A stretch of 33,773 bases of DNA, from the NCBI GenBank assembly GCA_016842045.1, contig JAEVEY010000145.1, positions 1-33,773 on the forward strand, given 5' to 3'. The translations under genes were made by a program, and so were the position numbers. The notes beneath the pieces are model-generated. The model saw nothing but the letters and a program-made list of their open reading frames with translations, was not told the DNA's origin and did no database searches. Positions 11,180 through 33,200 of this stretch are shown piece after piece (position 1 is the stretch's first letter; every line of letters starts with the position of its first letter). The stretch is from Candidatus Thermoflexus sinensis. Lineage in GTDB: Bacteria; Chloroflexota; Anaerolineae; Thermoflexales; Thermoflexaceae.

Positions 11180-11321
11180 TAGGACTTACGCAGTTCGTTT
11201 CCCATGGGGGCAAGGATTTTTCTCCCCCCTCCCCACGGCCCTTTGGGCCGTGGGGAGGGGGGAGAAAGGGGGGTGGGGCCATTCCGTCCCACCTTTAGAG
11301 CTTTCAACTGCGTAACTCCTA
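11180..11321 (+). mobile_element. Family 1 MITE-like element, subfamily B, copy 1
   Basis: A 142-bp non-coding element has terminal inverted repeats TAGGACTTACGCAGTT (left; one base off the family consensus TAGGAGTTACGCAGTT) and AACTGCGTAACTCCTA (right). It is bracketed by a perfect 7-bp direct repeat, CACCTCA, consistent with target duplication. The centre is a perfect stem of at least 20 bp (11222-11241 with 11245-11264, loop TTT). The right arm carries AAAGGGGGGTGGGGCCATTC. It is nearly identical to the reverse complement of the copy at 33058-33200, implying recent spread. It ends 49 bases before the mgsA start codon, so it may contribute to or displace the mgsA promoter. Confidence 0.85.
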
Positions 11322-11370
11322 CACCTCAGTTAAACTCAATAGGGAGAAGCCTCCTTCCAGGACATCGGCT

Positions 11371-11745
11371 ATGCCCAGGCGGATCGCGATCATCGCCCAT
11401 GATGGGAAAAAGGCGGAGCTGGTCGAGTGGGCCCGGCGCGAGCGGGAGCGCCTGGCCCGCCATCACCTGGTGGCGACGGCCACCACGGGGCGCACGTTGC
11501 AGGAGGCCCTGGGCCTGGAGGTGGCCTGCGTGCGCTCCGGCCCTCAGGGCGGGGATGCCCAGATCGCGGCGATGGTGGTGGAAGGGCACATCGACGCGGT
11601 GATCTTCCTGGTGGACCCCCTTTATGCCCATCCCCACGAGCCGGACATCCGCACGGTGATGCGGCTGTGTAATGTGCATAACGTTCCACTGGCCACCAAC
11701 CTGGCCACCGCCTCAATGGTCCTCCGGGGGCTGGAGGAAGGATGA
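11371..11745 (+). CDS. mgsA: Methylglyoxal synthase
   Basis: This 124-residue cytosolic enzyme converts dihydroxyacetone phosphate to methylglyoxal and phosphate, a bypass that relieves sugar-phosphate stress and phosphate shortage. Family features are present. These are the N-terminal IALIAHDGKK-like IAIIAHDGKKAEL (His10, Asp11), TTGRTLQEA for phosphate binding, the catalytic GGDAQIAA with Asp62 (Asp71 in the E. coli enzyme), and VDPLYAHPHEPDIRTVMRL with His89 and Asp92 (His98 and Asp101 in E. coli). It is slightly shorter than the E. coli protein (152). The ATG follows a modest CAGGA. Its stop overlaps the start of the TPR gene (ATGA), so the two are translationally coupled. A family 1 MITE lies just upstream. 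Confidence 0.95.
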   Translation: MPRRIAIIAHDGKKAELVEWARRERERLARHHLVATATTGRTLQEALGLEVACVRSGPQGGDAQIAAMVVEGHIDAVIFLVDPLYAHPHEPDIRTVMRLCNVHNVPLATNLATASMVLRGLEEG

Positions 11746-12923
11746 GCCGACGCCGCCGCTGGTTGTTCTGGCTGGTCCTCGACCTCCTGGCCCTGGTCGC
11801 CCTGGTGTGGATCGACCGATCGCTGGGGGCGAACCGCTCGCCTTCTATGGGACGCCCTTCCCCTTCACCGACGCCCTCCGCCGATGATTACATCCGGCAG
11901 GCGGAAGCCGCCTATCGCGCGGGCGATCTCCGGCGGGCCGAGGAAGGCTACCGGCTGGCCCTTTCCCTGGAGCCCGAAAACCCGGCCCGCTATCCTCCCC
12001 TGATCCGGCTGCTGGCCTTCAGCAACCGTCTGGACGAGGCGGCTGCCTGGCTGGAACGGGCCCGCCAGCTGGCCCCGGAGGACCCCGCAATTCTGGGGAT
12101 AGCGACGTTGATCCTCGACTGGCAGGGAAAGATCCCGGAAGCGATCCAGGCCGGGGAACAGGCCGTGGCCCGGGCTCCGGACTCCGGCCCCCTTTACGCC
12201 TACCTGGCGGAAGCCTATGCCGACGCTCACCGCCCGCAGGCCGCTCTCGCGGCCGCCCAGAAAGCCCTGGCCCTGGATCCGGAGCATCCGGACGCCCACC
12301 GCGCCCTGGGCTATGTTTATGAGACCCTGGGGCGATATGCGGAGGCGATGGCGGCCTATCGGGAGGCCCTGGCCCGGGATCCCAACATGGTGATCGTCTG
12401 GCTGGCCCTGGGGCGCAATGCCCTGGCCCTTCGCCAGACCTCTGTGGCCGTTGAAGCTTTCCAGCGGGCTGCGGCCCTGCGACCGGAGGACCCGCAGGTC
12501 CTGGATGAGCTGGGCTGGCTGTATTACAACATGGGGCGTCTGGAGGATGCGCAACAGACCCTGGAGAGGGCGCGGGAGCATGGCCCTGAGGACTGGCGGA
12601 TTCTTTACCATCTGGGGGTCACCCTGTATGCCCGCCGCCGCTATGAAGAGGTGGTTCAGGAGGACTCCCTTTCCCGGGGGATCGCCCGGCTTCAGGAGAT
12701 CTTACAGCATGAAGGGAAGGCATGCACGCCGGAGACCCTGAGCGTGGAACCTCGCTGCGCCCGGCTGGTGGAGATGGCTTACATCCTCGGGCTCTCCCAG
12801 TATTATCTGGGGAATTGCGAATCGGCCCGCCCCTGGTTCGAGCTCGCGCTTTCGATTTCCCCCCAGGAAGAAAACGCATTGAAGGGGCTCCAGTGGTGTG
12901 AGAAAGGCTCTGGACGGCCATAG
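11742..12923 (+). CDS. Membrane-anchored TPR-repeat protein
   Basis: This 393-residue protein has a basic start and one membrane helix (residues about 6-25, LFWLVLDLLALVALVWI), a Ser/Pro-rich linker, and then 7-8 tetratricopeptide repeats. The repeats have the usual pattern, for example AYRAGDLRRAEEGYRLALSL, LGYVYETLGRYAEAMAAY and LGWLYYNMGRLEDAQQTL. The anchor and linker suggest the repeats lie outside the membrane. TPR domains mediate protein interactions; no partner is identifiable. Two Cys pairs occur in the C-terminal quarter. It overlaps the mgsA stop by 4 bases and is followed about 100 bases later by a glycosyltransferase gene, so an envelope-assembly role is possible but unproven. 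Confidence 0.85.
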   Translation: MSRRRRWLFWLVLDLLALVALVWIDRSLGANRSPSMGRPSPSPTPSADDYIRQAEAAYRAGDLRRAEEGYRLALSLEPENPARYPPLIRLLAFSNRLDEAAAWLERARQLAPEDPAILGIATLILDWQGKIPEAIQAGEQAVARAPDSGPLYAYLAEAYADAHRPQAALAAAQKALALDPEHPDAHRALGYVYETLGRYAEAMAAYREALARDPNMVIVWLALGRNALALRQTSVAVEAFQRAAALRPEDPQVLDELGWLYYNMGRLEDAQQTLERAREHGPEDWRILYHLGVTLYARRRYEEVVQEDSLSRGIARLQEILQHEGKACTPETLSVEPRCARLVEMAYILGLSQYYLGNCESARPWFELALSISPQEENALKGLQWCEKGSGRP

Positions 12924-13021
12924 AACTTTACTTCGTTATGCAGATTTCTCCCTGAGGGCTTTAGGGGACCAGGCTGAATCGTTACAGTTTGTCCAAAGTC
13001 CAGTCGGTTTGGGAAAGGCAG

Positions 13022-15247
13022 ATGGAACCGCAGCGCCGAAATGGATCCTCTTCGATCCCTTCCACCGCAACCGGGAGGTGGGGATCCCGGGCGATCCCCC
13101 TGGGGATCCTCGCCCTTTGTTTTGCGTTGTATCTGGTTGCGCTCCCCCCGGCCTTCGTGCACAACGATGAGGCCCATGGAGCGATCGCGCTGATCTATAA
13201 CCTCCCGGACACTCTGCGAGCGGTAGCGCGAGACAGCCATCCGCCGCTTTATTACGTCTTGCTCTGGGGGTGGCTCCGGCTCGCTCCGCATCCCTTCGCC
13301 CTGAAATTCGTGTCGCCGTTCTTCGCCCTCCTGGCCCTGGCGTTCACCTACCGTCTGGTGAAGGCGGACGCCGGTCCGCGCATGGCGGCGCTGGCGATGC
13401 TCCTTCTCGGGCTGAACCCGCTGTTTTTTGCCCTGGCCACAATCGGCCGGATGTACACCATGGCCATCGCCTGCAGCGCCCTGGGGGCATGGCAGGCCCG
13501 GCGCGGACGCGATCGGGAATGGCTGCTCAGCGCCTGGGGGTTAACCCTCACGCACTTCTATGGAGCGTTCTTTCTCCCTACCCAGCGCTTGCTGGTTCGA
13601 GGTCCGCGCTCCTGGTTTCGAGAAGCCCTCCTCCTGGCCCTGGGCCTCCTTCCCCTGCTTCTCTGGTCGATCGGCGCGCTGGGGCCTTCGCTGGCGCACA
13701 CGGTGCGCACCCTGACCCGGATCCCGGTCCGCCCCACACCGCTCGAGGTTCTGGGGAACCTGATGGGGGCGCTGGGCATCGGCATCGGGGCCGATGGATC
13801 GCTGGGCTGGATCGGAGCCGGGGTCACAGCCCTGGGGATCGGGGCGGCGATCTCCCCTCGAACCCGCCGCCTCGGGCTGGCGATGGTCATCCCCGTCGGG
13901 ATCGGGCTGGCGCTGACGGCGCGCTTCCCCTTCTATGCGGCCCGGTATTTTTCCCCGATATTGCCTTTTTATGTGGGGGCGCTGGCGGTCGGCTGGCGCC
14001 GGCGGTGGCGATGGATCCTGGCCCCGCTGTATCTCATCCTGGGGATTTACGGCATCGGGCGGACGTGGACGGCGTATGCGAATGCGCCGATCTATGTGGA
14101 GGCCCAGCGGGAGCTCTACGCCACCCTCCACGCCCTTGCTCATCCCGCCGATCGCTTCGCCTTCCACGGCTACTGGAACCAGGCGGAGATGGCCCTCTTC
14201 TACCCGGAGACCCGCCCGCGTCTGATGGCTCTGGAGGATCTCAGCAACCCGAGAGAGCGTCTCCCGGAACCGACATGGCTGATCGGTGTGACCTTCTTTC
14301 AGGAACTTTACCGGCCGGTGGCGGAGGCGCTCGCCCGACAGGGCCCTTTTGACCGTCATGCCTGGTATCCGATGGCGGAGATCTTCCGTTTCGTGCCCTG
14401 GCCCGACGTCCCATCCTGGCACCCCATCCATATCCGGTTCGAGGATGGCATCCTCCTGGAAGCAGTGGCCCTGCCAGACCCGGTCGCCGAGCCCCGGGGC
14501 ACCGTCCGGGTCGGCTTGCGCTGGCAGGCGGAACATCCCATTGCCCGCCGCTATGTGGTCTTCGCCCATCTCTGGGACGATGCCGGGCGCTACCGGGCCG
14601 GGACGGATCGGGAGCCGGAGCCCCCAACAGCGATGTGGGAGGCGGGGTCGCCGATCACCCAGACGATCGCCATCGCCGTGCCCCCCTTTCTCCCGGCCGG
14701 CCGGTATCGGGTCATGGTCGGCCTGTACGAGCCGGCGGGATCCGGATGGCGGCGTCTGCGGACGGAAACGGGGGCTGACGCGGTGCCGATTGGCTCTGTC
14801 GAGATCCATCCTCTCAAAGGTATTACCCGAATCCGTACGGTACCTTTCCTGGAAACATCCTATCGCCCGGGGCGCGCGCTTCCGAATGGGATCACCTTGC
14901 TGGAAAGCGAGGCGTGGCACACCGAGATCGACGGCGTGCCGCGATGGCGAGTACATATCCTCTGGCGGGCGGACCAAGCTATGGGGGATGATACCCACCG
15001 CTTGCTTCTTCGATTCCCAAACGGAACGGTCGTAACGCTAACACCCCCTGAGGGATGGTTCCCGGGAGCTCGATCGGCCGGGGAGATCGTGGCGGAGATC
15101 TGGGAATGGGGGGAGCTGCTCGCGCCAGGACGCTATGAGGTATTCTGGGAAGGGGGAGGCCTTTTTCCTCTCCTGACGTTTCGGGTTCCGCCAGGGGGCT
15201 ACCAGTGGAATTATGACTGGATCTTCCTGAATCGCCTTCCCTGGTGA
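13022..15247 (+). CDS. GT39-type (ArnT/PMT-like) membrane glycosyltransferase with beta-rich C-terminus
   Basis: The chosen ATG, after GGGAAAGG, gives 741 residues; an in-frame TTG at 12989 would add 11. The first 450 residues are polytopic and carry GT-C signatures. The first extracytoplasmic loop has HNDEAHG (Asp49-Glu50), and DSHPPLYYVLLWGW (His73) follows, as in GT39 and dolichyl-phosphate-mannose mannosyltransferases. Then come a run of helices and RFPFYAARYFSPILPFYVGAL. From about residue 470 onward are two predicted beta-sandwich modules (for example GTVRVGLRWQAEHP and PAGRYRVMVGLYEP), which should lie outside the cytoplasm. It would transfer a sugar from a polyprenyl phosphate to a protein or envelope glycan; donor and acceptor are unknown. 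Confidence 0.8.
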   Translation: MEPQRRNGSSSIPSTATGRWGSRAIPLGILALCFALYLVALPPAFVHNDEAHGAIALIYNLPDTLRAVARDSHPPLYYVLLWGWLRLAPHPFALKFVSPFFALLALAFTYRLVKADAGPRMAALAMLLLGLNPLFFALATIGRMYTMAIACSALGAWQARRGRDREWLLSAWGLTLTHFYGAFFLPTQRLLVRGPRSWFREALLLALGLLPLLLWSIGALGPSLAHTVRTLTRIPVRPTPLEVLGNLMGALGIGIGADGSLGWIGAGVTALGIGAAISPRTRRLGLAMVIPVGIGLALTARFPFYAARYFSPILPFYVGALAVGWRRRWRWILAPLYLILGIYGIGRTWTAYANAPIYVEAQRELYATLHALAHPADRFAFHGYWNQAEMALFYPETRPRLMALEDLSNPRERLPEPTWLIGVTFFQELYRPVAEALARQGPFDRHAWYPMAEIFRFVPWPDVPSWHPIHIRFEDGILLEAVALPDPVAEPRGTVRVGLRWQAEHPIARRYVVFAHLWDDAGRYRAGTDREPEPPTAMWEAGSPITQTIAIAVPPFLPAGRYRVMVGLYEPAGSGWRRLRTETGADAVPIGSVEIHPLKGITRIRTVPFLETSYRPGRALPNGITLLESEAWHTEIDGVPRWRVHILWRADQAMGDDTHRLLLRFPNGTVVTLTPPEGWFPGARSAGEIVAEIWEWGELLAPGRYEVFWEGGGLFPLLTFRVPPGGYQWNYDWIFLNRLPW

Positions 15248-15437
15248 CCCATGGGGCTCGCCCTGGTGCCGTCCGCTCGGACCCGGTCAACGCTCTGGAT
15301 CTGATCCCAGCCCGCTACCCTGGATCTCCGGGCTCGCGGGAGGGCCGATGACATGGGTGAAGCCCGCGATCTCCGGGGTTGAAGGGGGCGTCTGCGGCGT
15401 CTCATCGGATCTGAGATCTTATAGGGGGCCATGGAAG

Positions 15438-16934
15438 ATGATCCGGGATCTGTTGATGAGCCAGGAGCCGGCTCTGCGGTTTTTCGCTGGCCTTGTTTAC
15501 TACACGCTGGGTCTCAGCCTGCTCCTGCAATCCCGCGGGCATAGTCGCCTGCGCCTGGCCCGCAGCCTCCCCTGGCTGGCCGGCTTCGGGATCCTTCACG
15601 CGGTATATGAATGGAGCAGCGCGTTCCTCCTGCCCCTTCGCTCGCCCGTTGCCACAGAGGCCGGAAGCCTCCTGATGATCGGTCGGACCATGATCCTGGC
15701 CCTGGCTTTCCTCTGCCTTTTTGAGTTCGGCGCCGACATTGTGGCTCCCCTCGGACCACGCTGGCAGTGGCTGCGGCCCATCGGGCTGATCCTTTTCCTG
15801 ACCTGGGGGGCAGGGGCCTTCGCCCTCGGGCTTCTCTCCGCCTTTCCTCTTCCGCAATGGGAGGGCTGGGTGGAGGCCGGGGCCCGCTATCTCCTGGGCT
15901 TCCCCGGCGGGCTGCTGGCGGCCTATGCCCTGCGTCGGCACACCTTCCACCTTCTGATCCCTCTGGCCCGGCCGCACATCATCGGGATGTTGCGCATCGC
16001 CGGGCTGGCGATCGCCGCTTACAGCCTTCTGGCCGGGCTGATCGGGCCCGCGGTTCCCATCTTCCCCCTGAATCTGATCCACGAAGAAGCGGTGCAGAAT
16101 CTCACCGGCGTGCCCGTTTTCCTGTTGCGCAGCCTGGCCGGCATTGTGCTGGTGGCCGGCATACTGCGGGCTCTGGAGATCTTCGAGATCGAGCTGAGCA
16201 GCCGGCTGAGCAGCCTGGAGGAGGCCCAGATCCTGGCCAGCGAGCGGGAGCGGATGAGCCGGGAGCTGCATGATCGCACGCTCCAGATGATCTACGGCGC
16301 CGGCCTGCTGGTCCGCAACATCCAGGCCCAGGCGGAGCCTGCCACCGCCAGCGCCCTCGACCCGGTGATTCGCTTGCTGGATCAGGCGGTGCAGAGCCTG
16401 CGGGAGATCCTTCAGGAGCTCCAGGCCCGCCCGGCGATGGCCAGCCTGATCGATGGGCTGGAGCGCCTCATCCGGGAATATGGCCTTCCCGCCCTGATGG
16501 ATGTGCAAACCGACTGGCAGATCCCTTCGGATGCCCAGCTGCCACCGGCCCAGTTGCGCCACATCCTCGCCATTGTATCGGAGGCCCTGAGCAATGTGGT
16601 CCGCCATGCCCGGGCCCGACGGGTCCATATCACCGCTACCCTGGACGATGGCCGGCTGCAGATCCGGATCGCCGATGACGGCCGCGGGTTTGGCCCGGAA
16701 GTTCAGCCCGGCTTCGGCCTGCGCAATATGGAGGAGCGGGCTCATCTACTCAATGGACGTCTGGAGATCCAGAGCCAGCCCGGCCTGGGGACCACGGTCA
16801 TCCTGGAGGTTCCCTGGTCAGGGATCCGCCGGGAGGCCCTCCATCGCCCGCTGGTGGCGAGCCAGTCCCAGCCGGAGGAAAGCCACTGGCGCGCCCCAGG
16901 TCACCCAGAGTCCGACCCCCGCATAACGCAATAA
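15438..16934 (+). CDS. NarX/DesK-type sensor histidine kinase
   Basis: From the ATG at 15438, preceded by AGGGGG, this is 498 residues. About seven membrane helices occupy residues 10-255 with no clear extracellular sensor domain, resembling 7TM sensor modules. A short coiled coil leads into the HisKA_3 dimerisation helix ERERMSRELHDRTLQMIYGAG, with His278 the phospho-acceptor. The HATPase follows, with N-box EALSNVVRHA (Asn386), G1 DDGRGFG (413-419) and GFGLRNMEERA. The domain ends at VILEVPW, exactly where the convergent PAP2 gene stops. The remaining 38 residues are encoded inside that gene and have no domain. HisKA_3 kinases normally pair with NarL-type regulators, and none is adjacent. 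The open frame extends upstream to 15348 without support. Confidence 0.88.
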   Translation: MIRDLLMSQEPALRFFAGLVYYTLGLSLLLQSRGHSRLRLARSLPWLAGFGILHAVYEWSSAFLLPLRSPVATEAGSLLMIGRTMILALAFLCLFEFGADIVAPLGPRWQWLRPIGLILFLTWGAGAFALGLLSAFPLPQWEGWVEAGARYLLGFPGGLLAAYALRRHTFHLLIPLARPHIIGMLRIAGLAIAAYSLLAGLIGPAVPIFPLNLIHEEAVQNLTGVPVFLLRSLAGIVLVAGILRALEIFEIELSSRLSSLEEAQILASERERMSRELHDRTLQMIYGAGLLVRNIQAQAEPATASALDPVIRLLDQAVQSLREILQELQARPAMASLIDGLERLIREYGLPALMDVQTDWQIPSDAQLPPAQLRHILAIVSEALSNVVRHARARRVHITATLDDGRLQIRIADDGRGFGPEVQPGFGLRNMEERAHLLNGRLEIQSQPGLGTTVILEVPWSGIRREALHRPLVASQSQPEESHWRAPGHPESDPRITQ

Positions 16935-17753
16935 CCGAAGGGCCGGCTCATTGGGAAGGGGAGGCGGGAGGAGCGAAAATCCTACCGTCAAACCCCCGTA
17001 GACGGCTCCCAGCATCAGCAGGCCGATGATTAGACGCCATCCTCGTTGTCGCAACGGCCCACCCGGATGGAATCCGTTTCTCCAGGACTCCCCTATGGCT
17101 CCCCATGCCATCCCCAGCCATGCGCCAAGCGGCACAGCGGTTTCCCGGGTTCCGTGGGCGAGGAAAAGCAGGAGGACCCCTCCCGTCGCCAGGAGGACAC
17201 CCTGTTTGCGAGAGGCCCCCAGACGGGGGACCAGCGGAGGGATGATCCGCGCCATCAGGAGGGCCACCAGGGCCCCGATGGCCCAGCCCGCCAGCACATC
17301 ATGGATGAAATGGACACCCAGGACGATCCGGGAGAGGCCGATGAGAAGGACCAGCCCGATGGTGAACAGGGTGAAGGGCGGCTGCCCGATCATCCCGGCC
17401 AGCGTCCCCCATAGCGCCGCAGCGTTCAGGGCGTGCCCGCTGGGAAGCCCATAGCCCAGCGCCTCCCCGCCGGGCAGAAGGACTCGAACCTGGTCCGGGG
17501 CGACCTGGAAAGGACGGGGCATGGCGAAGAGATCCTTCAGGACGAACGTAAGGTAACTTCCCAGCAGAAGCGCGGTCACAGCGTAGAGAGCCTCTCGCTT
17601 TCGGTAACACCAGAGCAGCGCGGGGAGGATCAGAAGGAACGCCTGCTCCTCTCCCAGAAATGACATCAGGCGCCAGAAGGGGATGGCCCATGGCGGTTGA
17701 AGCGCCTGCAAACGAGCGATCCCTTCGATCTGCCAGCGCATCCAGTCCGGCAT
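16818..17753 (-). CDS. PAP2-superfamily membrane phosphatase (lipid phosphatase)
   Basis: Starting at the ATG 17751-17753 with a strong AGGAGGGTCAAG leader, this is a 311-residue membrane protein with the complete PAP2 signature. The motifs are KDLFAMPRP (Lys73, Arg80, Pro81), PSGH (104-107) and SRIVLGVHFIHD (Ser141, Arg142, His148, Asp152), matching KX6RP-PSGH-SRX5HX3D. Members dephosphorylate phosphatidate, undecaprenyl diphosphate or other lipid phosphates; the substrate here is unknown. It is longer than simple BacA-independent PAP2 proteins because of 4-5 extra helices after the catalytic domain. Its last 117 bases overlap the 3' end of the histidine kinase on the other strand and encode its last membrane helix. 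Confidence 0.88.
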   Translation of the reverse strand: MPDWMRWQIEGIARLQALQPPWAIPFWRLMSFLGEEQAFLLILPALLWCYRKREALYAVTALLLGSYLTFVLKDLFAMPRPFQVAPDQVRVLLPGGEALGYGLPSGHALNAAALWGTLAGMIGQPPFTLFTIGLVLLIGLSRIVLGVHFIHDVLAGWAIGALVALLMARIIPPLVPRLGASRKQGVLLATGGVLLLFLAHGTRETAVPLGAWLGMAWGAIGESWRNGFHPGGPLRQRGWRLIIGLLMLGAVYGGLTVGFSLLPPPLPNEPALRLLRYAGVGLWVTWGAPVAFLRLGLARHQRAMEGLPADP

Positions 17754-17794
17754 CTTGACCCTCCTGAGCAGGGTGGACCCTCCAGCCTCCCGGA

Positions 17795-17893
17795 CAGGGC
17801 TTTTCAATGTTCTAACCCTTGGGGAGAAAGGGGGGAGGGGCTACCCCTTTCTTCGTCGTTCTGCCATCTTTGTTAGAACTTTAAAAAGCCCCA
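17795..17893. mobile_element. Family 2 MITE-like element, copy 2
   Basis: A 99-bp element has 20-bp inverted ends (17797-17816 and 17872-17891) matching at 18 of 20 positions, including GTTCTAAC/GTTAGAAC and GGGCTTTT/AAAAGCCC. It is flanked by a perfect 9-bp direct repeat, CCTCCCGGA (17786-17794 and 17894-17902), the expected sign of target duplication. The interior contains GGGGAGAAAGGGGGG, close to the inner arm of family 1 subfamily B. There is no coding capacity. It sits between the divergent PAP2 and MBL-hydrolase genes and could carry part of either promoter region. Confidence 0.75.
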
Positions 17894-17985
17894 CCTCCCG
17901 GATTCAGCACATCTCAATGGATCCGGTTATCATGAAAAAGAAAGGCCAGCTTGCTTTCCGGCCACTCTTCGGAAAGGAGGTCCCC

Positions 17986-18675: not shown

Positions 18676-18684
18676 GCGAGGCAA

Positions 18685-18713
18685 GGGCGGGCAGGCTTCT
18701 GGCCTGCCCGCCC
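18685..18713. terminator. Bidirectional terminator hairpin
   Basis: A perfect 12-bp stem GGGCGGGCAGGC/GCCTGCCCGCCC with a 5-base loop lies between the convergent MBL-hydrolase (ends 18675) and FemAB (ends 18737) genes. It lacks a long T-run on either side but is well placed to end both transcripts. Confidence 0.7.
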
Positions 18714-18736
18714 AGAACCGCTGGCGCATGATCATC

Positions 18737-25096: not shown

Positions 25097-25102
25097 CTGG
25101 AG

Positions 25103-25174: not shown

Positions 25175-25198
25175 TGAAAGCCGGATGCCACAGATCAT

Positions 25199-25382
25199 TA
25201 GGAGTTACGCAGTTGGTTTTCTCCTGGGGGTTTTGGGGGAGTCGCGCGCCTTCGGCGCGCGACTCCCCCAAAAAATATATTTATCCCCCCTCCCCACGGC
25301 CCAAAGGGCCGTGGGGAGGGGGGATAAAGGGGGGCGGGGCCATTCTACCTCTTCTCGCGAGCCCCGAACTGCGTAACTCCTA
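25199..25382 (+). mobile_element. Family 1 MITE-like element, subfamily A, copy 1
   Basis: A 184-bp element has perfect 16-bp inverted ends, TAGGAGTTACGCAGTT on the left and the complement of its 15-base core on the right (GAACTGCGTAACTCCTA). It is flanked by a 4-bp direct repeat TCAT. It contains two long perfect stems: one of 19 bp with loop CTTCG (25231-25249 with 25255-25273) and the common core of 22 bp with loop AAA (25281-25302 with 25306-25327). The right arm has AAAGGGGGGCGGGGCCATTC, as in subfamily B. It is nearly identical to the reverse complement of 31858-32039. The rest of the 25175-25572 spacer has only a degenerate end-like GTTGCGTAATTCC at about 25395. Confidence 0.85.
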
Positions 25383-25572
25383 TCATAATAAACGCGTTGC
25401 GTAATTCCGCCTGGGGGGACTTTTTGGGGGTGAGGAGACCACTCAAGGTGGCTTCCCTAACTTCTATTTCCCCTCCCTGTGGCCTCTCAAGTTGTGGAGA
25501 GAGGGAATCAGGAGGGGTAAAGCTCATCACGCAATCAGCGAGTCCGATCCAAAACAGATACTGGGGACCAAA

Positions 25573-26586
25573 ATGGCTTTTACCGTTCGGGATTTTGACG
25601 ATCTGATCCGCCTGCTGGACAAGCATCCAAACTGGCTGGAGGCCCTGCGCCAGCGGCTGCTTACAAAGGAACTCCTCCAGTCTCCCAAAACCCTGCAGCG
25701 CCTATCCACTCGAGTGGGCAAGGTGGAAAAGGGCCTGGATAGCCTGAGGGAGGCCATCCAAACCCTGACCCAATCAGTGACCGCCCTGGCCGAAGCCCAG
25801 CGGCGCACCGAGGAGCGGGTAGGACGGCTGGAGGAGGCGGTGACCGCCCTGGCTGAAGCCCAGCGGCGGCACTATGAGGAGTTCGTCGCCCATCGGGCCG
25901 AAACCGATCGCCGCTTCGCCGAACTGGCTGAAGCCCAGCGGCGGCACTATGAGGAGTTCGTCGCTCATCGGGCCGAAACCGACCGCCGCTTCGCCGAACT
26001 GGCCGAAGCCCAGCGGCGCACCGAGGAACGGGTAGCACGGCTGGAGGAAGCAGTGACCGCCTTAGCCGAAGCTCAACGGCGCACAGAAGCTCAAATTCAG
26101 GAACTGATCCGGCATCAGCGCCAGATGCAATCCACCCTGGATCGGTTCGCCCAGGTCATCGGCCCCGCGGTGGAAGAACGGATGATCCCCGCCCTGAAGG
26201 CCTGGGTGGAGGGATCCGGTGGAACCCTGACGGGCCCTGTGGTCTCGATGGCCCTGGATGGGATTGGGGTGGTAGATGGGGTCGTTCGGGTGCGGTGGCC
26301 CGAGGGCCAGGAGGGATGGGTGCTGATCTCGGTGAGGGCCAAGGTATGGCCCCGAGGGATCCGGGAGTTCGTGGAAGGGATTTTACAGAACCCGGAGGCA
26401 CGGGCAGCCCTGCGGGCGAGGGGAGTGGAGGATCCGGTGTGGCCCGTGGTATTCGGGTTGACAGCGGACGAGCGAGCGCTGGAGACTGCGAAGCAGGAGA
26501 AAGTGGGGCTGCTATTGAGCCACCAGGGGATCATTGTGCCCCCGGTTCCCTGGTCGATTGAGCAGGGCAGCTCGCTTCCGGAATGA
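25573..26586 (+). CDS. Coiled-coil protein with degenerate PD-(D/E)XK-like C-terminus
   Basis: The ATG at 25573 gives 337 residues. Residues 1-45 are a small helical head (FTVRDFDDLIRLLDKHPNW). Residues about 45-195 are a coiled coil built of repeats starting LAEAQRR, including two consecutive 25-residue units (AEAQRRHYEEFVAHRAETDRRF) flanked by matching TEERV-x-RLEEAVTA units. Residues about 200-325 look like the nuclease-fold domain found in DUF3782-like coiled-coil proteins, but the expected E-x-K strand reads LISVRAKV (251-258), with Ser and Arg in the catalytic places. It is probably not an active nuclease. It stands alone, with a MITE upstream and convergent nuoN downstream. Function unknown. 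Confidence 0.75.
   Translation: MAFTVRDFDDLIRLLDKHPNWLEALRQRLLTKELLQSPKTLQRLSTRVGKVEKGLDSLREAIQTLTQSVTALAEAQRRTEERVGRLEEAVTALAEAQRRHYEEFVAHRAETDRRFAELAEAQRRHYEEFVAHRAETDRRFAELAEAQRRTEERVARLEEAVTALAEAQRRTEAQIQELIRHQRQMQSTLDRFAQVIGPAVEERMIPALKAWVEGSGGTLTGPVVSMALDGIGVVDGVVRVRWPEGQEGWVLISVRAKVWPRGIREFVEGILQNPEARAALRARGVEDPVWPVVFGLTADERALETAKQEKVGLLLSHQGIIVPPVPWSIEQGSSLPE
25852..26001 (+). repeat. 75-bp tandem repeat within the coiled-coil gene
   Basis: Two consecutive 75-bp units (25852-25926 and 25927-26001) differ at only two positions, both silent (GCC/GCT and GAT/GAC). The near identity indicates a recent in-frame duplication, or homogenisation, of 25 codons in the coiled coil. Flanking units around 25790-25851 and 26002-26068 form a second, more diverged repeat pair. 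Confidence 0.9.
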
Positions 26587-26605
26587 ATTGGATGTTTCTT
26601 TCACA

Positions 26606-26737
26606 CCGCGAGACTCCCTATCCCCTCGCGGTTCCAGAGAGCCACGGGGAAGAGACTCGTGCTTCTTAAGAGGTCCCGAAACCACAGAACACGTGGCCGA
26701 TTTTGTCCAGCCCCCAGCTCAGGCAACAGGGCCTGAG
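26606..26737. terminator. Hairpins between convergent coiled-coil gene and nuoN
   Basis: The 178-base convergent gap holds CCGCGAG/CTCGCGG (7-bp stem, 12-base loop, 26606-26631), close after the coiled-coil gene. It also holds CTCAGGC/GCCTGAG (7-bp stem, 6-base loop, 26718-26737), close after nuoN. They are well placed to end the two transcripts, though neither has a strong T-run. Confidence 0.45.
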
Positions 26738-26764
26738 AGGAGATCAGCGGTGAGGCTCACGCCT

Positions 26765-28177
26765 TCATAGCGAAAGCCCCCCGAGCATTAACCACAGGAC
26801 ACCCAAGAGAAGCGTTCCCACCCCGGTGAGGGCGACGGAGAAACGAACCCATGGATAGGGCCCTGGAAGGCGCGCCGCTTCCCCTGGACCCATCCACATC
26901 GCGACCACCACGCGCAGATAAAAGTAGGCGGAGATCACCGTTGTGATGATGCCCACCATCACCAGAGCCACCCATCCGGCCTGCCAGGCTGCCGCGAACA
27001 GCAGGAGCTTGGCGAAGAAGCCCGCGGTGGGCGGCACACCGATCAGGGAAAGCATAAAGATCGCCATCGCGGTTCCCATCCCCGGTGACCCCCGCGCAAC
27101 GCCGGCATAGGCCCTGAACGATTGATCTTCCCCATGCGGGTCAGCCATCCCCACCGCTACCGCGAAGGCCCCCATCGTCGCCAGGGTATACGCCAGGAGG
27201 TAGAACATCACGCCGGGCACCGCCAGGGCAGGATCCCCCAGCAATCCCATCAGCAGATAGCCGGCGTGGGCAATGCTGGAATAGGCCATCATCCGCTTGA
27301 AGTTAGACTGCAGCAGAGCGACCCCGTTGCCCACGATCATGGTCGCCACCGCCATCAGCGCCACCGGGCCGCTCCAGAGGGCCAATGCGGGTCCCATGCC
27401 GATCAGGAACACCCGGATCAGGGCCGCGACGGCGGCTGTCTTCGTGGCCGCTGCCATGAAACCTGTGACCGGCGTCGGTGCCCCCTCATAGACGTCCGGG
27501 GTCCAGAGGTGGAAAGGCACGGCCGCCACCTTAAATCCCAGCGCCACCAGCAGCAGGGCACCACCCACCCACACCAGAGGTTGCGCGTCGGGATCTGGAC
27601 GCCTCAGCCAGGCCGCCAGGTCGTTCAGGTTCGTCAGCCCGGTCCCTGCAAAGATCAACGCGATCCCAAACACCAGAAAGGCGGAGGCGAAGGCCCCCAG
27701 CAGGAAATATTTCAAAGCCGCTTCCTCGGATTCCACACGGGGGCGGGCGAAGCCGGCAAGCACATACAGGGGAAAGGAGAGCCACTCCAGAGCGAGAAAG
27801 ACGATGAGCAGATCCGCTGCCACTGCCATCAACAGCATCCCCGCAGCGGCCAGCAGGAGGAACACGTAATACTCCCCCCGTTCGATCCCCCGATCCGCCA
27901 GGTAGTGTCGCGATAACAGGATGGCAATTCCCGCCCCCACCAGGATGGTGAGGCTCAGCCAGAAGGCACTGCGATCCCAGAGAACCATGCTATAGATCCC
28001 CTCGATCGTCCCCCAGGTCGCCAGAGCGCTGGTCGCTCCCATCCCCAGCGCGGTGATCCCCAGAGCACCCCATGCCATCCCGGTCGTCGATCCCGGACGC
28101 CGGAACGCCTCCGCCAGCAACAGGCCTAATGCGCCTGCCGTTAAGATGAGTGTCGGCAACAATGGCATCCACACCAT
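26765..28177 (-). CDS. nuoN: NADH-quinone oxidoreductase subunit N
   Basis: This 470-residue, 14-helix antiporter-like subunit is part of the complex I membrane arm. Proton-channel residues are in place: the TM5 Glu in FLALEWLSFPLYVL, the TM7 Lys in LGFKVAAVPFHLWTPD, the TM8 Lys in AATKTAAVAALIRV, and NFKRMMAYSSIAHAGYLLMGL. It moves protons across the membrane using energy passed along the arm from the quinone site. The ATG follows GGGAGAG, 47 bases after nuoM. It is the last gene of the nuo cluster in this window. The length matches the family. Confidence 0.95.
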   Translation of the reverse strand: MVWMPLLPTLILTAGALGLLLAEAFRRPGSTTGMAWGALGITALGMGATSALATWGTIEGIYSMVLWDRSAFWLSLTILVGAGIAILLSRHYLADRGIERGEYYVFLLLAAAGMLLMAVAADLLIVFLALEWLSFPLYVLAGFARPRVESEEAALKYFLLGAFASAFLVFGIALIFAGTGLTNLNDLAAWLRRPDPDAQPLVWVGGALLLVALGFKVAAVPFHLWTPDVYEGAPTPVTGFMAAATKTAAVAALIRVFLIGMGPALALWSGPVALMAVATMIVGNGVALLQSNFKRMMAYSSIAHAGYLLMGLLGDPALAVPGVMFYLLAYTLATMGAFAVAVGMADPHGEDQSFRAYAGVARGSPGMGTAMAIFMLSLIGVPPTAGFFAKLLLFAAAWQAGWVALVMVGIITTVISAYFYLRVVVAMWMGPGEAARLPGPYPWVRFSVALTGVGTLLLGVLWLMLGGLSL

Positions 28178-28224
28178 CGATTTGCTCTCTCCCGAACAGA
28201 GGGCGCGAGGATGCAGTTAAGGGT

Positions 28225-29748
28225 TTAACGCAACGCCCAGATCGGCTGGGCCACGGCCGCCAGGCCATATTGCACAGAAGCCTGCATTGCCGCGAAGAAC
28301 GGCAGTGGGTAAAGGCCAATGAGCAGGATCAGCACCAGCAGCGGGGCCATGATCGCCAGCTCCCGGCCGTTCAAATCCGGCAGCCCCCGCCACCGCTCCG
28401 GCAGGGGACCATGGAGCACCCGCAGGATCATCGTCAGGATATAAACGGCCGCCAGCACCACCCCGAACGCCGCCAGCGCCGTCAACCCGTGGGCAGCCGG
28501 CCGGAGGGCCGCGGATCCAAAGGCCCCCAGCAGGACCAGGAATTCCCCTACAAATCCATTCAACCCGGGAAGCCCCATGGAGGAGAGACCGACCACGATC
28601 AGGATCCCACCGTATACCGGCAGGGCTTTCCACAACCCTCCCAGCTCCCGGAAATCCCGCGTATGCGTTCGCTCATACAACATCCCCACCAGCAGGAACA
28701 GGCCCCCGGTGCTCAGGCCGTGGTTGACCATCTGGAGGAGCGCTGCCTGAACCCCCAGCGGGTTCATGGCGGAAAGCCCCAGCATCACAAAGCCCATGTG
28801 GGAGACGCTGGAGAAGGCCACCAGACGCTTGAAGTCGTCCTGGGCGTAAGAGGCCAGCGCCCCATACAGGATCGCCACCACAGCAAGAATGGCCAGAGGA
28901 AGCGCAAGCTCCTGAGCAGCCGTCGGGAACAGTGAGAAATTGAACCGCAGGAATCCATAAGCTCCCATCTTCAACAGGAGAGCGGCCAGGATCACGGAGC
29001 CCGCCGTCGGGGCTTCCACATGCGCATCCGGCAGCCATGAATGGAGCGGCCACATTGGCACCTTGATGGCGAAGGCCAGCCCGAAGGCCAGGAACAGCCA
29101 GCGCTGGGCCTCCTGGGAAAGCAATGGGCTCAGATGGGCGGCCATCCACGCCGGATCGAAGGTCCCTGTCCCCGTGAGCGGCCGCGAGAGGAGCCACAGG
29201 GCGACGATGGCCACCAGCATGAACACGGACCCGGCCATCGTATACAGGAAGAACTTCACCGCTGCATAAACCCGCCGCGGGCCGCCCCAGATCCCGATCA
29301 GCAAGGTCATGGGGACCAGGGTGAATTCCCAGAAGATGTAAAACAGCAAAAGATCCAGAGCGAGGAACACCCCCAGCACCCCCGTCTCCAGCAACAGCAT
29401 CAGCGCCATGTATTCCTTCACCCGATCCTCAATGGTCCACGAGGCCGCCAGGGCAAGGGGGAAGATGAGGGCCGTCAGCAAGACCAGCCACAGGCTGATC
29501 CCGTCCACCCCAACCCGATAAGCCGCCCCGATGGACGGCGCCCAATTCCAGTGATGGACGAACTGGGGGCCGGGTTGGGCGGGGTCGAAGCCGAGCAGAA
29601 GCCCCAGGGCCAGCGCCAGGACCCCCACGCTCGTCCCCAGCGCGATCCACCGGATCGCCCCCACGCGATCCCGAGGGAGCCCCAGGATCAACAGCGCCCC
29701 TCCCAGGGGCAGGAGCAGCATCCATGTGAGGATCGAGAAGTCCGCCAT
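28225..29748 (-). CDS. nuoM: NADH-quinone oxidoreductase subunit M
   Basis: This 507-residue antiporter-like subunit has the family signatures. These are FYIFWEFTLVPMTLLIGIWGG (TM5 Glu), AIKVPMWPLHSWLPDAHVEAP (TM7 Lys), LLLKMGAYGFLRF (TM8 Lys) and DFKRLVAFSSVSHMGFVMLG. It forms one of the three proton-pumping modules of the membrane arm, between NuoL and NuoN. The Shine-Dalgarno AAGGAG overlaps the nuoL stop, so only 13 bases separate the genes and they are tightly coupled. No anomalies were seen. Confidence 0.96.
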   Translation of the reverse strand: MADFSILTWMLLLPLGGALLILGLPRDRVGAIRWIALGTSVGVLALALGLLLGFDPAQPGPQFVHHWNWAPSIGAAYRVGVDGISLWLVLLTALIFPLALAASWTIEDRVKEYMALMLLLETGVLGVFLALDLLLFYIFWEFTLVPMTLLIGIWGGPRRVYAAVKFFLYTMAGSVFMLVAIVALWLLSRPLTGTGTFDPAWMAAHLSPLLSQEAQRWLFLAFGLAFAIKVPMWPLHSWLPDAHVEAPTAGSVILAALLLKMGAYGFLRFNFSLFPTAAQELALPLAILAVVAILYGALASYAQDDFKRLVAFSSVSHMGFVMLGLSAMNPLGVQAALLQMVNHGLSTGGLFLLVGMLYERTHTRDFRELGGLWKALPVYGGILIVVGLSSMGLPGLNGFVGEFLVLLGAFGSAALRPAAHGLTALAAFGVVLAAVYILTMILRVLHGPLPERWRGLPDLNGRELAIMAPLLVLILLIGLYPLPFFAAMQASVQYGLAAVAQPIWALR

Positions 29749-29761
29749 CTGTCTCTGCTCC

Positions 29762-31687
29762 TTATCGCAACATCCAGAGGATGTAGAACACGAGAAGGAC
29801 CGCGCCGATCAGCATGGAGAGGCCATACTGACGCACGTAGCCACTGCTCCAGCGGCGCACACCTCCAGCCGCCGATCGCACCAGGCGGGCCAGGGCGTTA
29901 ACCGCCCCGTCAATCCCATAGGGCTCCACCACATCCGCCACCACTCGCGCCACCCCATTGAAGGGGCGGATGAAGAGGATATCGTAAAGTTCATCGACAT
30001 ACAGCTTCCGGGTCAACGCGGTGAAGAAGCCGCGGAGCGCGGGGCGCAACGGGTCCTCCACCCCCTTTGGCCACGCCTGCGGACGGTAGATCGCCCACGC
30101 GGTTCCAATCCCGGCCAGGGCGATCAGCGTGGCCAGCAGGGCCTGTTCCGGATGGAAAACCGGGAGATGCCCGGGCTCCAGCCAGGCGCTGAGCGCGCCC
30201 AGGCCCGGAGCGTTGATCCATCCCGCTGCGATTGAGAAGAGGGCGAAAAGCCCCAGTGGAACGGTCATCACCGCCGGGCTCTCTTCCGCGTGGGCGGCCG
30301 CGGGGCTCCGCGGCGCGCCTCCAAAAATCATCAGCACCTGCCGGGTCATGTAGAACGCCGTGAAGAAGGCCGCTGTTAGCAGGAACCCGTAAGCCAGCGT
30401 CGCCCATCCGCCCGCCCCACCCAGGCCAATCAGGATCTCATCCTTACTCCAGAAACCAGCCAGCGGCGGCAGACCGGCGAGCGCTGCTGCCCCGATCCCA
30501 TAGGCCCAGAACGTCACGGGCATCCGTCGGGCCAACCCTCCCATCTGACGCATATCATTCGGATCGAAGGGGGAGGGGTCCCCATGATGGCGATGGGCAT
30601 GTTCCAGCGCATGGATAACGGAGCCCGCCCCCAGGAAGAGCAACGCCTTAAAGAAGGCGTGGGTTCCCAGATGGAAGATCGCCGCAGCCGAGGCCCCCGC
30701 TCCGGCGGCCGCCACCATGTAGCCCAGCTGGGAGATCGTCGAGAAGGCCAGCACCCGCTTGATATCGAACTGGCCGATGGCGATCAGGGCCGCCCACAGG
30801 GCCGTCGCTGCCCCAATCAGCATCACCACCCCCTGGGTAAGCGGCGCCATCGCGAAAAGCGGATGGGCCCGGGCGATCAGGTAGACCCCGGCGGTAACCA
30901 TCGTCGCCGCGTGGATCAGGGCGGAGACCGGTGTGGGGCCGGCCATCGCGTCGGGTAACCAGACATACAGCGGGATCTGGGCGCTTTTGCCTGTTACGCC
31001 CGCGAACAGGAGCAGGGTGATGAGGGTCACGGCCCCCGCTTCGACGGCATGATGTTCCACCGCCTCGAAGATCGGCTCATAGCGAAATGTGCCGAAGGTC
31101 CAGAACAACAGCAACAGGCCCAGGGTGAAGCCGAAATCCCCGATGCGGTTCACAATGAACGCCTTACGGCCCGCCCAGGCGTTGTAGGGAACCTCAAACC
31201 AGAAGCCGATCAGAAGATACGAACAGAGCCCCACCAGTTCCCAGCCCACAAAGAGGACGAGGAAGTTGTCGGCCAGGACCAGGAGGAGCATGGAAGCCAG
31301 GAACAGGTTCAGGAACATGAAGAAGCGGCGGATATGAGGATCACCCGCCATATAGCCGATGGAGTAAACGTGGATCAGCGTCCCCACCAGGGTCACGACC
31401 AGGGCCATCGTGGTCGAGAGGGGGTCGATCCGCAACCCCACTTCCGCTGTCAGAGGAGGAACCATCGCCCAGCGATAGAGGCTGATTTCCACCAACCGGG
31501 CCTCCGGCGGACGGGCCAGCAGAGCAACGAAGATCAGAGCGGACATCCCGAAAGACGCCGCCGCGGCCGTCGAGGCCACGATCCCGATAGTCCGTTCCCG
31601 GGTCTGACCGGTGGAAACCAGGTTGATCAGAAATCCCAGCAGGGGGAAGGCAATGATTAACCAGGACCACTCGAACAGCGCTTCCAT
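29762..31687 (-). CDS. nuoL: NADH-quinone oxidoreductase subunit L
   Basis: This 641-residue protein is the distal antiporter-like subunit of complex I. The signatures include LFVGWELVGLCSYLLIGFW (TM5 Glu), GKSAQIPLYVWLPDAMAGPTPVSALIHAATMVTAGVYL split here as the TM7-TM8 region, KRVLAFSTISQLGYM, and HAFFKALLFLGAGSVIH. The C-terminus carries the expected long lateral helix region and a final membrane helix (SMLIGAVLLVFYILWML). The ATG follows TTGAGGAG. Its leader is unusual: 366 bases separate it from nuoK and contain a 26-base palindrome and a family 1 MITE, so it may have its own transcript. Confidence 0.96.
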   Translation of the reverse strand: MEALFEWSWLIIAFPLLGFLINLVSTGQTRERTIGIVASTAAAASFGMSALIFVALLARPPEARLVEISLYRWAMVPPLTAEVGLRIDPLSTTMALVVTLVGTLIHVYSIGYMAGDPHIRRFFMFLNLFLASMLLLVLADNFLVLFVGWELVGLCSYLLIGFWFEVPYNAWAGRKAFIVNRIGDFGFTLGLLLLFWTFGTFRYEPIFEAVEHHAVEAGAVTLITLLLFAGVTGKSAQIPLYVWLPDAMAGPTPVSALIHAATMVTAGVYLIARAHPLFAMAPLTQGVVMLIGAATALWAALIAIGQFDIKRVLAFSTISQLGYMVAAAGAGASAAAIFHLGTHAFFKALLFLGAGSVIHALEHAHRHHGDPSPFDPNDMRQMGGLARRMPVTFWAYGIGAAALAGLPPLAGFWSKDEILIGLGGAGGWATLAYGFLLTAAFFTAFYMTRQVLMIFGGAPRSPAAAHAEESPAVMTVPLGLFALFSIAAGWINAPGLGALSAWLEPGHLPVFHPEQALLATLIALAGIGTAWAIYRPQAWPKGVEDPLRPALRGFFTALTRKLYVDELYDILFIRPFNGVARVVADVVEPYGIDGAVNALARLVRSAAGGVRRWSSGYVRQYGLSMLIGAVLLVFYILWMLR

Positions 31688-31769
31688 TCCAGGCTCCTCA
31701 AGAGCGTTTGCATCCTGGATGAAAAGCCCTCTGGTTCAGAAAACGATGTCTAACCGGAAAGGTCGCGGG

Positions 31770-31825
31770 GTCCTCCGCACAACCTAAAGGGCCCAAGGGG
31801 AGGACGGTTTGCGCAAACCATCCTC
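31770..31825 (-). promoter_or_regulatory. Overlapping alternative hairpins upstream of nuoL
   Basis: A 26-base palindrome (31800-31825) has the perfect central dyad GGTTTGCGCAAACC and 12 of 13 pairs matched. Its left arm, GGAGGAC (31799-31805), can instead pair with GTCCTCC at 31770-31776, so two structures are mutually exclusive. The arrangement resembles an attenuator or a protein-binding dyad about 110 bases before the nuoL start. Function is inferred only. Confidence 0.4.
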
Positions 31826-31857
31826 GGCGGCCCGGCGCCCCGCAAAATTTCACAGGA

Positions 31858-32039
31858 TAGGAGTTACGCAGTTCGGGGCTCGCGAGAAGAGGTAGAATGG
31901 CCCCACCCCCTTTATCCCCTCTCCCCACGGCCCAAGGGGCTGTGGGGAGGGGGGATCAATATATTTTTGGGGGGAGTCGCGCGCCTTCGGCGCGCGACTC
32001 CCCCAAACCCCCAGGAGAAAACCAACTGCGTAACTCCTA
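31858..32039 (-). mobile_element. Family 1 MITE-like element, subfamily A, copy 2 (between nuoK and nuoL)
   Basis: A 182-bp element in opposite orientation to the 25199 copy, with perfect 16-bp ends TAGGAGTTACGCAGTT and AACTGCGTAACTCCTA. It is flanked by a perfect 6-bp direct repeat ACAGGA. It carries both the stem with the GAAGG/CTTCG loop and the common C/G core stem, here with a few mismatches. It begins 14 bases after the nuoK stop. In the nuo transcript it would fold into two long hairpins. Confidence 0.85.
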
Positions 32040-32053
32040 ACAGGAAAAAAGCC

Positions 32054-32359
32054 CTATCCTCGCAGGCTGCTCAGTTCATCCACGTTCGTAGTCCTCTTGG
32101 TGCGGAAGATCGCGACCATCAGGGCAAGGCCCACCGCCACCTCAGCGGCCGCCACCGTAAGCACAAAGAAGACCGTCAGCTGTCCCTCCAGAAGGCCGCG
32201 GTAGCGGGAAGCGGCTACGAAAGCCAGGCCCGCCGCGTTCAACATCAGCTCCACGCACATAAAAACGATCAGCGCATTCCGGCGGATCAGGAACCCGACG
32301 GCACCGATCCCGAAGAGGATGGTGCTGAGGACCAGATAATGAGTCAGCGTGACCATCAT
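32054..32359 (-). CDS. nuoK: NADH-quinone oxidoreductase subunit K
   Basis: This 101-residue, three-helix membrane subunit starts [22 protein letters not shown]. The two membrane glutamates used in proton transfer are in [13 protein letters not shown] and [11 protein letters not shown]. Counting from the second Met they are Glu36 and Glu72, exactly the E. coli NuoK numbering, so the second ATG may be the true start. The first ATG overlaps the nuoJ stop (ATGA). The RBS GGAGGGG is inside the end of nuoJ. A MITE lies immediately downstream and separates it from nuoL. Confidence 0.96.
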
Positions 32360-32886
32360 TTCCCCTCCGATCGGAAATCCCGGGCCAGCACCACCACGCC
32401 TACCATCGCGATGAGCAGAAGGACCGATGTGATTTCAAAGGGAAGCACATAGGTCGTTAACAGCCGCTCCCCGATGGCCACAGGATCCCCCAGAGGGGCA
32501 GGCGGGCTTCCCGCAGGTGCCAGCCCTGCAGGCGTCTGAAGAAAGGCGAACAGCGCACCTCCGACCAGTGCGGCCCCCAGGGTTGCGGCCAGCGGAACCT
32601 GCCAGCGGAGGCCTGCCGTTCCTCCAACCCGCTCCGCTCCCAGCATCATGATCACGAACAGGAAGAGCACCATCACCGCCCCCGCATAAACCGCGATCTG
32701 AACCATCGCCACAAAGGGGGCGCCCAATAAAAGATAGAAAACGGCCACCACCACCAGGTTTAACACCAGGAACAGGGCGCTATGGATCGCATTCCGGGTG
32801 ATCACCATCGCCAGAGCGGTGGCGACGGCGATCCCGGCCAGCAGGTAGAATACGATCAGCTCCCCCAAGAGAACCTCCAACCGCAA
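32356..32886 (-). CDS. nuoJ: NADH-quinone oxidoreductase subunit J
   Basis: This 176-residue membrane subunit has five helices. The N-terminal [54 protein letters not shown] region, quoted only in parts by motif ([24 protein letters not shown]), contains the TM3 pi-bulge segment that couples quinone reduction to proton transfer. It lies in the complex I membrane arm near the quinone site. The C-terminal [13 protein letters not shown] is typical. It overlaps nuoK by 4 bases. The 317-base gap to nuoI upstream holds a MITE and an end remnant. Confidence 0.96.
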
Positions 32887-32966
32887 GTTTTAAGGGCCGG
32901 GCAGACCGCTCCAGGCTGTCCGTTGAGTCCATATTCCTTGATCCAGGGGCGGTCAGGGGGGCCCTG

Positions 32967-32978
32967 GCGTAACTCCTA
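32967..32978. repeat. Solitary family 1 end remnant
   Basis: GCGTAACTCCTA is identical to the outer 12 bases of the family 1 right end, yet has no partner end on its left. It is 80 bases from the intact copy at 33058. It is probably the relic of an earlier insertion or a failed excision in the nuoI-nuoJ spacer. Confidence 0.6.
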
Positions 32979-33057
32979 TCCGAATTTGACCCGCTCCGGG
33001 AGCTCCTGTCTGAGGAGGACAGGATGGGCATTCCCGTACCCATATATCGGTTTTTAA

Positions 33058-33200
33058 TAGGAGTTACGCAGTTGAAAGCTCTAAAGGTGGAACGGAATGG
33101 CCCCACCCCCCCTTTCTCCCCCCTCCCCACGGCCCTTTGGGCCGTGGGGAGGGGGGAGAAAAATCCTTGCCCCCATGGGAAACGAACTGCGTAACTCCTA
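33058..33200 (-). mobile_element. Family 1 MITE-like element, subfamily B, copy 2 (between nuoI and nuoJ)
   Basis: A 143-bp element with perfect 16-bp ends, TAGGAGTTACGCAGTT and AACTGCGTAACTCCTA. It is flanked by the imperfect 7-bp direct repeat TTTTTAA/TATTTAA. It is nearly identical, over its whole length and in reverse orientation, to 11180-11321, including the perfect core stem with a three-base loop. It begins 3 bases after the nuoI stop codon, so the insertion just missed the gene. Confidence 0.85.

Follow-up and report, generated by a model that had tools for sequence, protein, structure and literature searches.

A putative family of about 200 miniature inverted-repeat transposable elements in Candidatus Thermoflexus sinensis, probably mobilized in trans by an IS701-type transposase

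A stretch of 33,773 nucleotides from Candidatus Thermoflexus sinensis (contig JAEVEY010000145.1 of assembly GCA_016842045.1; hereafter the window) contains four short repeats, each closed by 16-bp inverted ends and bordered by direct repeats of differing length. A first-pass annotation of the sequence had taken them for a recently active, non-coding family dependent on a full-length relative elsewhere. What kind of element are they, what moved them, and why do the direct repeats vary in length? The window lies within contig 51 of a draft genome (G000; 3.44 Mb, 212 contigs, 94.5% complete), and comparison with the rest of this genome, with congeners and with more distant genomes of the class indicates that the four repeats belong to a gene-free family of about 200 members. 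We regard these as miniature inverted-repeat transposable elements (MITEs) because a partner with exactly these ends exists in another Thermoflexus, and they were probably moved in trans, as non-autonomous elements, by an IS701-type DDE transposase supplied from a full-length element.

The four copies were confirmed at the positions first assigned to them, with lengths of 142, 184, 182 and 143 bp. Copy 1 (11180–11321, plus strand) and copy 4 (33058–33200, minus strand) have arms of one kind (B) around a single hairpin (H1), and copy 2 (25199–25382, plus strand) and copy 3 (31858–32039, minus strand) have arms of another kind (A) around two hairpins, H2 and H1. All eight ends match TAGGAGTTACGCAGTT with no or one mismatch each, the chance expectation in shuffled sequence being 0.04 matches even with up to three mismatches allowed, and the proposed inverted ends are thereby borne out. 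The left end of copy 1, previously given as TAGGAGTT, reads TAGGACTT, a left/right asymmetry that is usual in the class of this copy. The flush direct repeats are also as first described for copy 1 (CACCTCA, 7 bp; 11173–11179 and 11322–11328), copy 2 (TCAT, 4 bp; 25195–25198 and 25383–25386) and copy 3 (ACAGGA, 6 bp; 31852–31857 and 32040–32045), no strand being assigned to any of them. At copy 4 an exact flush repeat is absent, and the flanks TTTTTAA and TATTTAA correspond over 7 bp with one mismatch. Near-identity within each size class was found for the tighter 142-bp class, in which 24 copies of exactly this length show a mean of 4.2 differences over 139 positions, and not for copies 2 and 3, which are only approximately 93% identical. 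In place of the 19-bp stem with a CTTCG loop originally proposed, copy 1 was observed to have a stem of 23 bp and copy 2 one of 20 bp in its first hairpin, both with loops of 3 nt; the second hairpin of copy 3 is imperfect. Folding as single-stranded DNA gave z-scores of -8.6 for copy 1 and -10.7 for the first 123 bases of copy 2.

A genome-wide search for the ends, as the first-pass annotation had recommended, located them far outside these four places. With up to two mismatches, G000 has 228 copies of the 16-bp end on one strand and 235 on the other (463 in all), compared with 2 and 1 (3) for a reversed control, and 45 exact pairs of ends enclose 80–110 bp. A left-arm pattern covering the A and B kinds of the window (up to three mismatches) matched 121 plus 95 sites, 216 in total, in G000 and 72 plus 85 sites (approximately 157) in the sister genome G002, with control values of 0 in both. 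Each of the other seven genomes of the genus gave 0 to 23 matches, those listed for G003 to G008 all having two or three mismatches. Four copies in 33.8 kb, earlier called dense, amount to about twice the genome average and are unremarkable.

From 570,097 bases of G000 chosen around known end sites, a sample that favours copies with intact ends, 79 distinct paired copies were taken; all pairs were retained, including a few doubtful ones with 3–6 end mismatches. Nearly all of them span 84–190 bp, which leaves no room for a transposase gene and supports the description of the family as non-coding. At least three arm types were seen, between which lie none, one or two hairpins of the kinds H1 (...CCTCCCCACGGCCC-loop-...), H2 (...GGGGGAGTCGCGCGCC-loop-...) and H3 (...GGCGGAGCGGGGCGCC-loop-...), these module and loop classes being assigned by simple patterns that miss damaged hairpins. 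Arms-only forms of 84–93 bp exist, as does a copy with a B arm on the left and an A arm on the right (C94:1672–1813). The two size classes of the window were thus both recovered, and they understate a modular set with several hairpin combinations. On contig 41 of G000 (L047, 15251–15756) two MITE copies with an identical 10-bp left flank lie in a segment duplicated around a run of N, which would represent either an assembly duplication or a real tandem copy.

Several lines of evidence support mobility and recent activity, as the first reading of the window had proposed. The 79 copies occupy different flanks, and 50 of them have target duplications, described below. Among the congeners that could be aligned, copy 3 is missing in six and copy 4 in five according to approximate intergenic alignments; at base level these empty sites are approximate only, the intergenic DNA having diverged between species. 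In the congener G005, a 114-bp MITE with the same ends is inserted in one of a set of TnpB-carrying elements (L104, see below) with a 6-bp target duplication, CATCAT. The joined flanks minus one CATCAT closely match the unfilled sequence in 8 of 11 sister elements, the other three differing at the searched motif, and this MITE has, by that comparison, a clean paralogous empty site.

Exact flush duplications of at least 4 bp were present at 50 of the 79 copies, where 1.5 would be expected from flanks re-paired at random, and at six further copies the flanks agree over 6–7 bp with one mismatch (control 0.75). This larger set retains the flanking repeats and also their variation in length: two duplications are of 4 bp, 28 of 5 bp, 11 of 6 bp, seven of 7 bp and two of 9 bp. 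An A or T stands two positions outside the duplication in 55 of 56 flanks of the 5-bp sites, compared with 44% further out (P ~1e-18), and the same position is A or T in 21 of 22 flanks at 6-bp sites and in all 14 at 7-bp sites. A fixed 5-bp duplication with chance extension was ruled out, since a flush 6- or 7-bp repeat is no extension of a 5-bp one; repeats of 6 and 7 bp were seen 11 and 7 times when 0.21 and 0.11 would be expected. Elements of other genomes, for which ends with up to four mismatches were admitted, follow a similar pattern. In G026, from another family, 7 of 10 short elements with these ends are flanked by 5-bp duplications, with A or T outside in 14 of 14 flanks, and of 25 pairs from other genomes of the class 12 have duplications of 4–7 bp, the A/T rule holding in 21 of 24 flanks. 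A local A or T seems to place each cut, distances of 5 to 7 bp between the cuts apparently being allowed, and the variable repeat length singled out in the first-pass annotation would be partly explained by this outside base.

Candidates for the transposase came from elements of other genomes that have such ends. Ends reading YAGGASTTACGCAGTT occur exactly in 63 of 396 genomes of the class, the loci inspected being mostly short elements, and in G457 and G578 they adjoin a DDE transposase at its C-terminus, the stop codon falling within the end. A search with a C-terminus of this type identified a 1107-bp element in the congener G001 (G001:C74, L210), both ends of which are exactly TAGGAGTTACGCAGTT and the gene of which matches the NCBIfam profile IS701_2 (NF049921) with 377 bits and an E value of 7.5e-113, the cut-off being 250. 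The dependence on a full-length relative elsewhere is thus supported by an IS701-type element with identical 16-bp ends, albeit an interrupted one, in a congener. Elsewhere in the class, the ends of IS701_2 elements read TAGGACTTACGCAAAA or TAGGACTTTCGCTT, with a common core TAGGACTT(A/T)CGC, and 5-bp duplications were found at two of the eight such elements of other genomes for which both ends were read (L216, L222). Within the genus the profile matches four of nine genomes (G001, G002, G005 and G006): G001 has the interrupted gene above cut-off and a partial copy, and a MITE-type end at 204450 in G005 lies approximately 100 bp from the start of the IS701 piece at 204552.

A number of observations weigh against this attribution. 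In the G001 element the gene is broken by a palindrome that brings in a stop codon in frame, and the element lacks a flush target duplication. An intact IS701_2 gene was found in none of the nine genomes of the genus, the pieces in G002, G005 and G006 all scoring below cut-off, and IS701_2 was not detected in the window's own genome, a draft that is 94.5% complete; the latter result fits the earlier suggestion that the transposase is either elsewhere or lost. The profile also matches 5 of 14 control genomes, once above cut-off, and weak IS701_2 pieces alone therefore prove little. Six of the eight IS701_2 elements from other genomes are without a flush duplication, as are 23 of the 79 MITE copies even with one mismatch allowed, and by eye the MITE arms and the IS701 element have only the 16-bp ends in common. 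A Thermus IS701 element, ISTth8, is listed with 4-bp rather than 5–7 bp duplications in the accessible text of PMC6352166. The 4-bp duplication expected of IS701 does not describe the MITEs, with a mode of 5 and a range of 4–9 bp, and the partner is for this reason termed IS701-like rather than a classical IS701.

The palindrome that interrupts the G001 gene is perfect (L210, about 1643–1680), and a similar palindrome is present in the 3' part of a TnpB-family gene of the same genome (L122), which suggests hairpins that insert on their own. The sequence to the left of position 649 in L210 resembles, by eye, the start of another transposase gene, and the G001 element may be rearranged.

A second kind of gene-bearing element has the same ends in sister genomes. 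G005, assembled as a single contig, contains 12 of these (L094–L104, L110), eleven of 1302–1304 bp and a longer one of 1649 bp that includes MITE sequence; duplications of 5–6 bp flank 10 of the 12, and the outside base is A or T in 18 of 20 flanks. Their sole recognisable gene encodes a 399-residue TnpB-family protein. Two G005 members gave E values of 3.2e-30 and 9.3e-28 with NF040570, the latter just below cut-off, PF07282 gave 1.4e-15, and one structure prediction had a pLDDT of 78 and a pTM of 0.56. When the elements were compared with IS200/IS605 or IS607, the TnpB-family protein was present (NF040570, PF07282), but the hallmark absence of inverted ends and of duplications was contradicted by the 16-bp ends and the duplications at 10 of 12, and the canonical D-E-D RuvC site of such TnpB proteins was altered. 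All 15 aligned members, which come from three genomes, have His in place of the third Asp, with D, E and H invariant, and this Asp is retained in all 12 other TnpB relatives for which the motif was obtained. The reading frames are open in all 12 G005 elements, with a median dN/dS of 0.156, a median dS of 0.216 and a pN/pS of 0.28 for private changes, and these genes are under purifying selection.

Among 400 genomes of the phylum, this TnpB clade (E <=1e-25) was found in three Thermoflexus genomes and one more distant genome, and a search of the genus added further copies in G001, G006 and G008. The window's genome, one of those three, holds a decayed remnant only, 35% identical and with two stops, and no DNA match to the G005 element was found in it. 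One G001 copy resembles by eye, on its left side, a deletion derivative of the IS701 element. Neither the 13-base end TAGGACTTACGCA nor a description of bacterial TnpB elements with such ends was found in the open-access literature, which for the latter included the accessible portions of PMC3627910 and PMC10711439. IS892 and IS1341 were considered as known homes of TnpB elements, and no support for either was found in the available text of the literature (for IS1341, PMC3119063). The simplest reading would be that of a TnpB gene carried inside IS701-type ends, by analogy a bacterial counterpart of Fanzor1-only elements. Within L104, positions 501–724 (G005:C1:1476886–1477109) form a MITE-like piece of approximately 224 bp with, by eye, an IS701-like left end; on the right it resembles the TnpB elements at their 3' end, to which similar matches were seen at G005:C1:1792727–1792850 and 173700–173820. 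This piece is possibly a retained guide-RNA region.

As the only gene between the long end pairs of G005, the TnpB-family gene was the initial candidate for the transposase itself: a protein with a RuvC fold and a D-E-H site, performing DDE-like work, would transpose both its own element and the MITEs. The target duplications and A/T flanks of the G005 elements, their constrained and uniformly open reading frames with invariant D, E and H, and the presence of IS701 in G005 as fragments only are all compatible with such a role, which we nevertheless consider unlikely. It was lowered because IS701-type genes adjoin the same ends and because class genomes in which the TnpB clade was not found show the same ends and target rule. 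In addition, the protein scores as a guided TnpB, the usual third Asp is absent, the window's genome has only the decayed remnant, and Fanzor1-only elements with borrowed DDE ends provide a known parallel (accessible text of PMC3627910). That the D-E-H protein is a working transposase or an obligatory transposition factor that also drove the MITE burst is unlikely; a weaker form, a bacterial counterpart of Fanzor1 elements in which TnpB is a passenger within IS701-type ends and selection maintains it, is much more likely.

It is unlikely that another, unseen transposase of non-IS701 type with the same ends mobilizes the MITEs in the window's species. An intact autonomous element was seen in neither of the MITE-burst genomes (G000 and G002), the former being an incomplete draft in 212 contigs, and G017 and G479 contain a DDE element that is more diverged and has CAGGACTTACGCAGTT ends. 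That element, however, is itself best scored as IS701_2, with a C-terminal piece at 2.9e-18, below cut-off, and in the loci inspected every recognisable gene between such ends was of IS701 or TnpB type. A spread of REP-like hairpins by recombination rather than transposition would accommodate the eight hairpins of MITE types that lie clear of recognisable ends in 529,982 bases, but these could equally be decayed MITE cores, and flush duplications more than 30-fold over chance, the clean empty site and the conserved ends make this explanation highly improbable.

The ends, target duplications, copy number and empty site were observed directly, as was the IS701-type element with identical ends in a congener; that an IS701-type transposase moved the MITEs, by cut and paste, we infer from sequence comparison. 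In the IS701-type mechanism that we favour, a full-length element with TAGGASTTACGCAGTT ends would supply the DDE transposase in trans. Each strand would be cut at a position set two bases from an A or T, and 5, 6 or 7 bp between the two cuts would give duplications of variable length. The interior of the element consists of fixed arms with no, one or two hairpins, the loops of which invert in place, most likely because replication switches template from one stem arm to the other. The autonomous partner seems to have disappeared from the window's genome, or else the draft assembly does not contain it. To the extent that sequence permits, the question of the partner is answered.

Loop orientation, relative to the arms, was mixed for each kind of hairpin. 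Where both arms are of the B kind, the H1 loop is AAA in 17 copies, TTT in 15 and something else in 8; the H2 loop of A copies reads TTC in 10 and GAA in 7, and the H3 loop GAA in 5 and TTC in 3. Haplotypes identical outside the loop hold both orientations (AAA 4, TTT 1 and TTG 1 in one; TTT 3 and AAA 1 in another), as counted in 24 of the 25 copies of exactly 142 bp, one without a matching loop pattern being omitted. Since both orientations occur in otherwise identical haplotypes, in-place inversion is frequent relative to substitution. Changes in the stem arms were matched in both arms in two copies and not matched in seven. Inversion of a loop or spacer together with matching of the arms is a footprint of replication template switching, according to the accessible text of PMC8794818 and PMC8604942, and template switching between the stem arms is the most likely source of the inversions, gene conversion between inverted copies being a possible one.

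Outside the paired MITEs 56 hairpins were recorded, 31 near a recognisable end or the end of a stretch and 25 others, and only eight of these 25 are of MITE type, a number that weakened an initial impression that free-standing MITE hairpins are abundant. They may be either independent repeats or the cores of decayed MITEs. Two H1-type hairpins clear of any recognisable MITE end lie in the window itself, at 3339–3385 and 3560–3592 (no strand assigned to either), approximately 175 bp apart, the second having a different but complementary inner stem.

The copies of the window are placed next to varied genes. An open reading frame with an MGS-like domain starts 49 bp beyond copy 1, and the second tRNA-Glu ends 24 bp ahead of copy 2. 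Copy 3 lies between complex I genes for chain 5 (nuoL-like) and chain 4L (nuoK-like), and copy 4 between those for chain 6 (nuoJ-like) and a 4Fe-4S, nuoI-like open reading frame. An Rfam search of the window returned two tRNAs and nothing else, and promoter and terminator scans of 31500–33500 gave no more signal than shuffled sequence. A solo degenerate MITE end, TAGGAGTTACGCCAGG, is present on the minus strand at 32963–32978, with four mismatches and approximately 80 bp before copy 4, and is probably the remnant of an older insertion.

Compared with known systems, the family shares with IS701 (NF049921) the terminal core noted above and, in the G001 element, exact MITE ends; it differs in that the MITEs are geneless and their duplications mostly of 5–7 bp, compared with 4 bp for Thermus IS701 (accessible text of PMC6352166). 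Like the prokaryotic MITEs covered in the available part of PMC10969869, the elements are short and non-coding, with inverted ends, duplications and a partner with matching ends, and their number falls within the range of 30 to 711 given there for ERIC copies. Unlike these, the Thermoflexus family has cassette-like hairpins, both loop orientations and variable duplication length. Loop or spacer inversion and arm homogenization are common to this family and to hairpin template-switch mutation as presented in the accessible text of PMC8794818 and PMC8604942, the Thermoflexus case differing in that near-identical copies of a mobile element carry the two orientations at close to 1:1. Eukaryotic Fanzor1-only elements (PMC3627910, accessible text) resemble the TnpB elements in having a lone TnpB-family gene, DDE-type ends and duplications, whereas the Thermoflexus elements are bacterial, with IS701-type ends and His as the third catalytic residue in place of Asp.

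The MITEs are ordinary in kind, and what distinguishes them is their variable duplications, their flipping hairpins and their TnpB-bearing cousins. With approximately 216 elements in G000 and 157 in its sister genome, they form a dense natural series that offers a direct view of duplication length, target choice and hairpin mutation. Cuts anchored by A or T with flexible spacing would offer a testable account of variable-length duplications in some transposons, and the near 1:1 loop orientations would turn a mobile element into a natural reporter for template switching during replication. If the D-E-H TnpB reading were true, a relative of RNA-guided nucleases would be transposing at DDE-type ends. 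The TnpB-only elements would in turn extend to bacteria the link between TnpB nucleases and DDE transposons described for eukaryotic Fanzor1.

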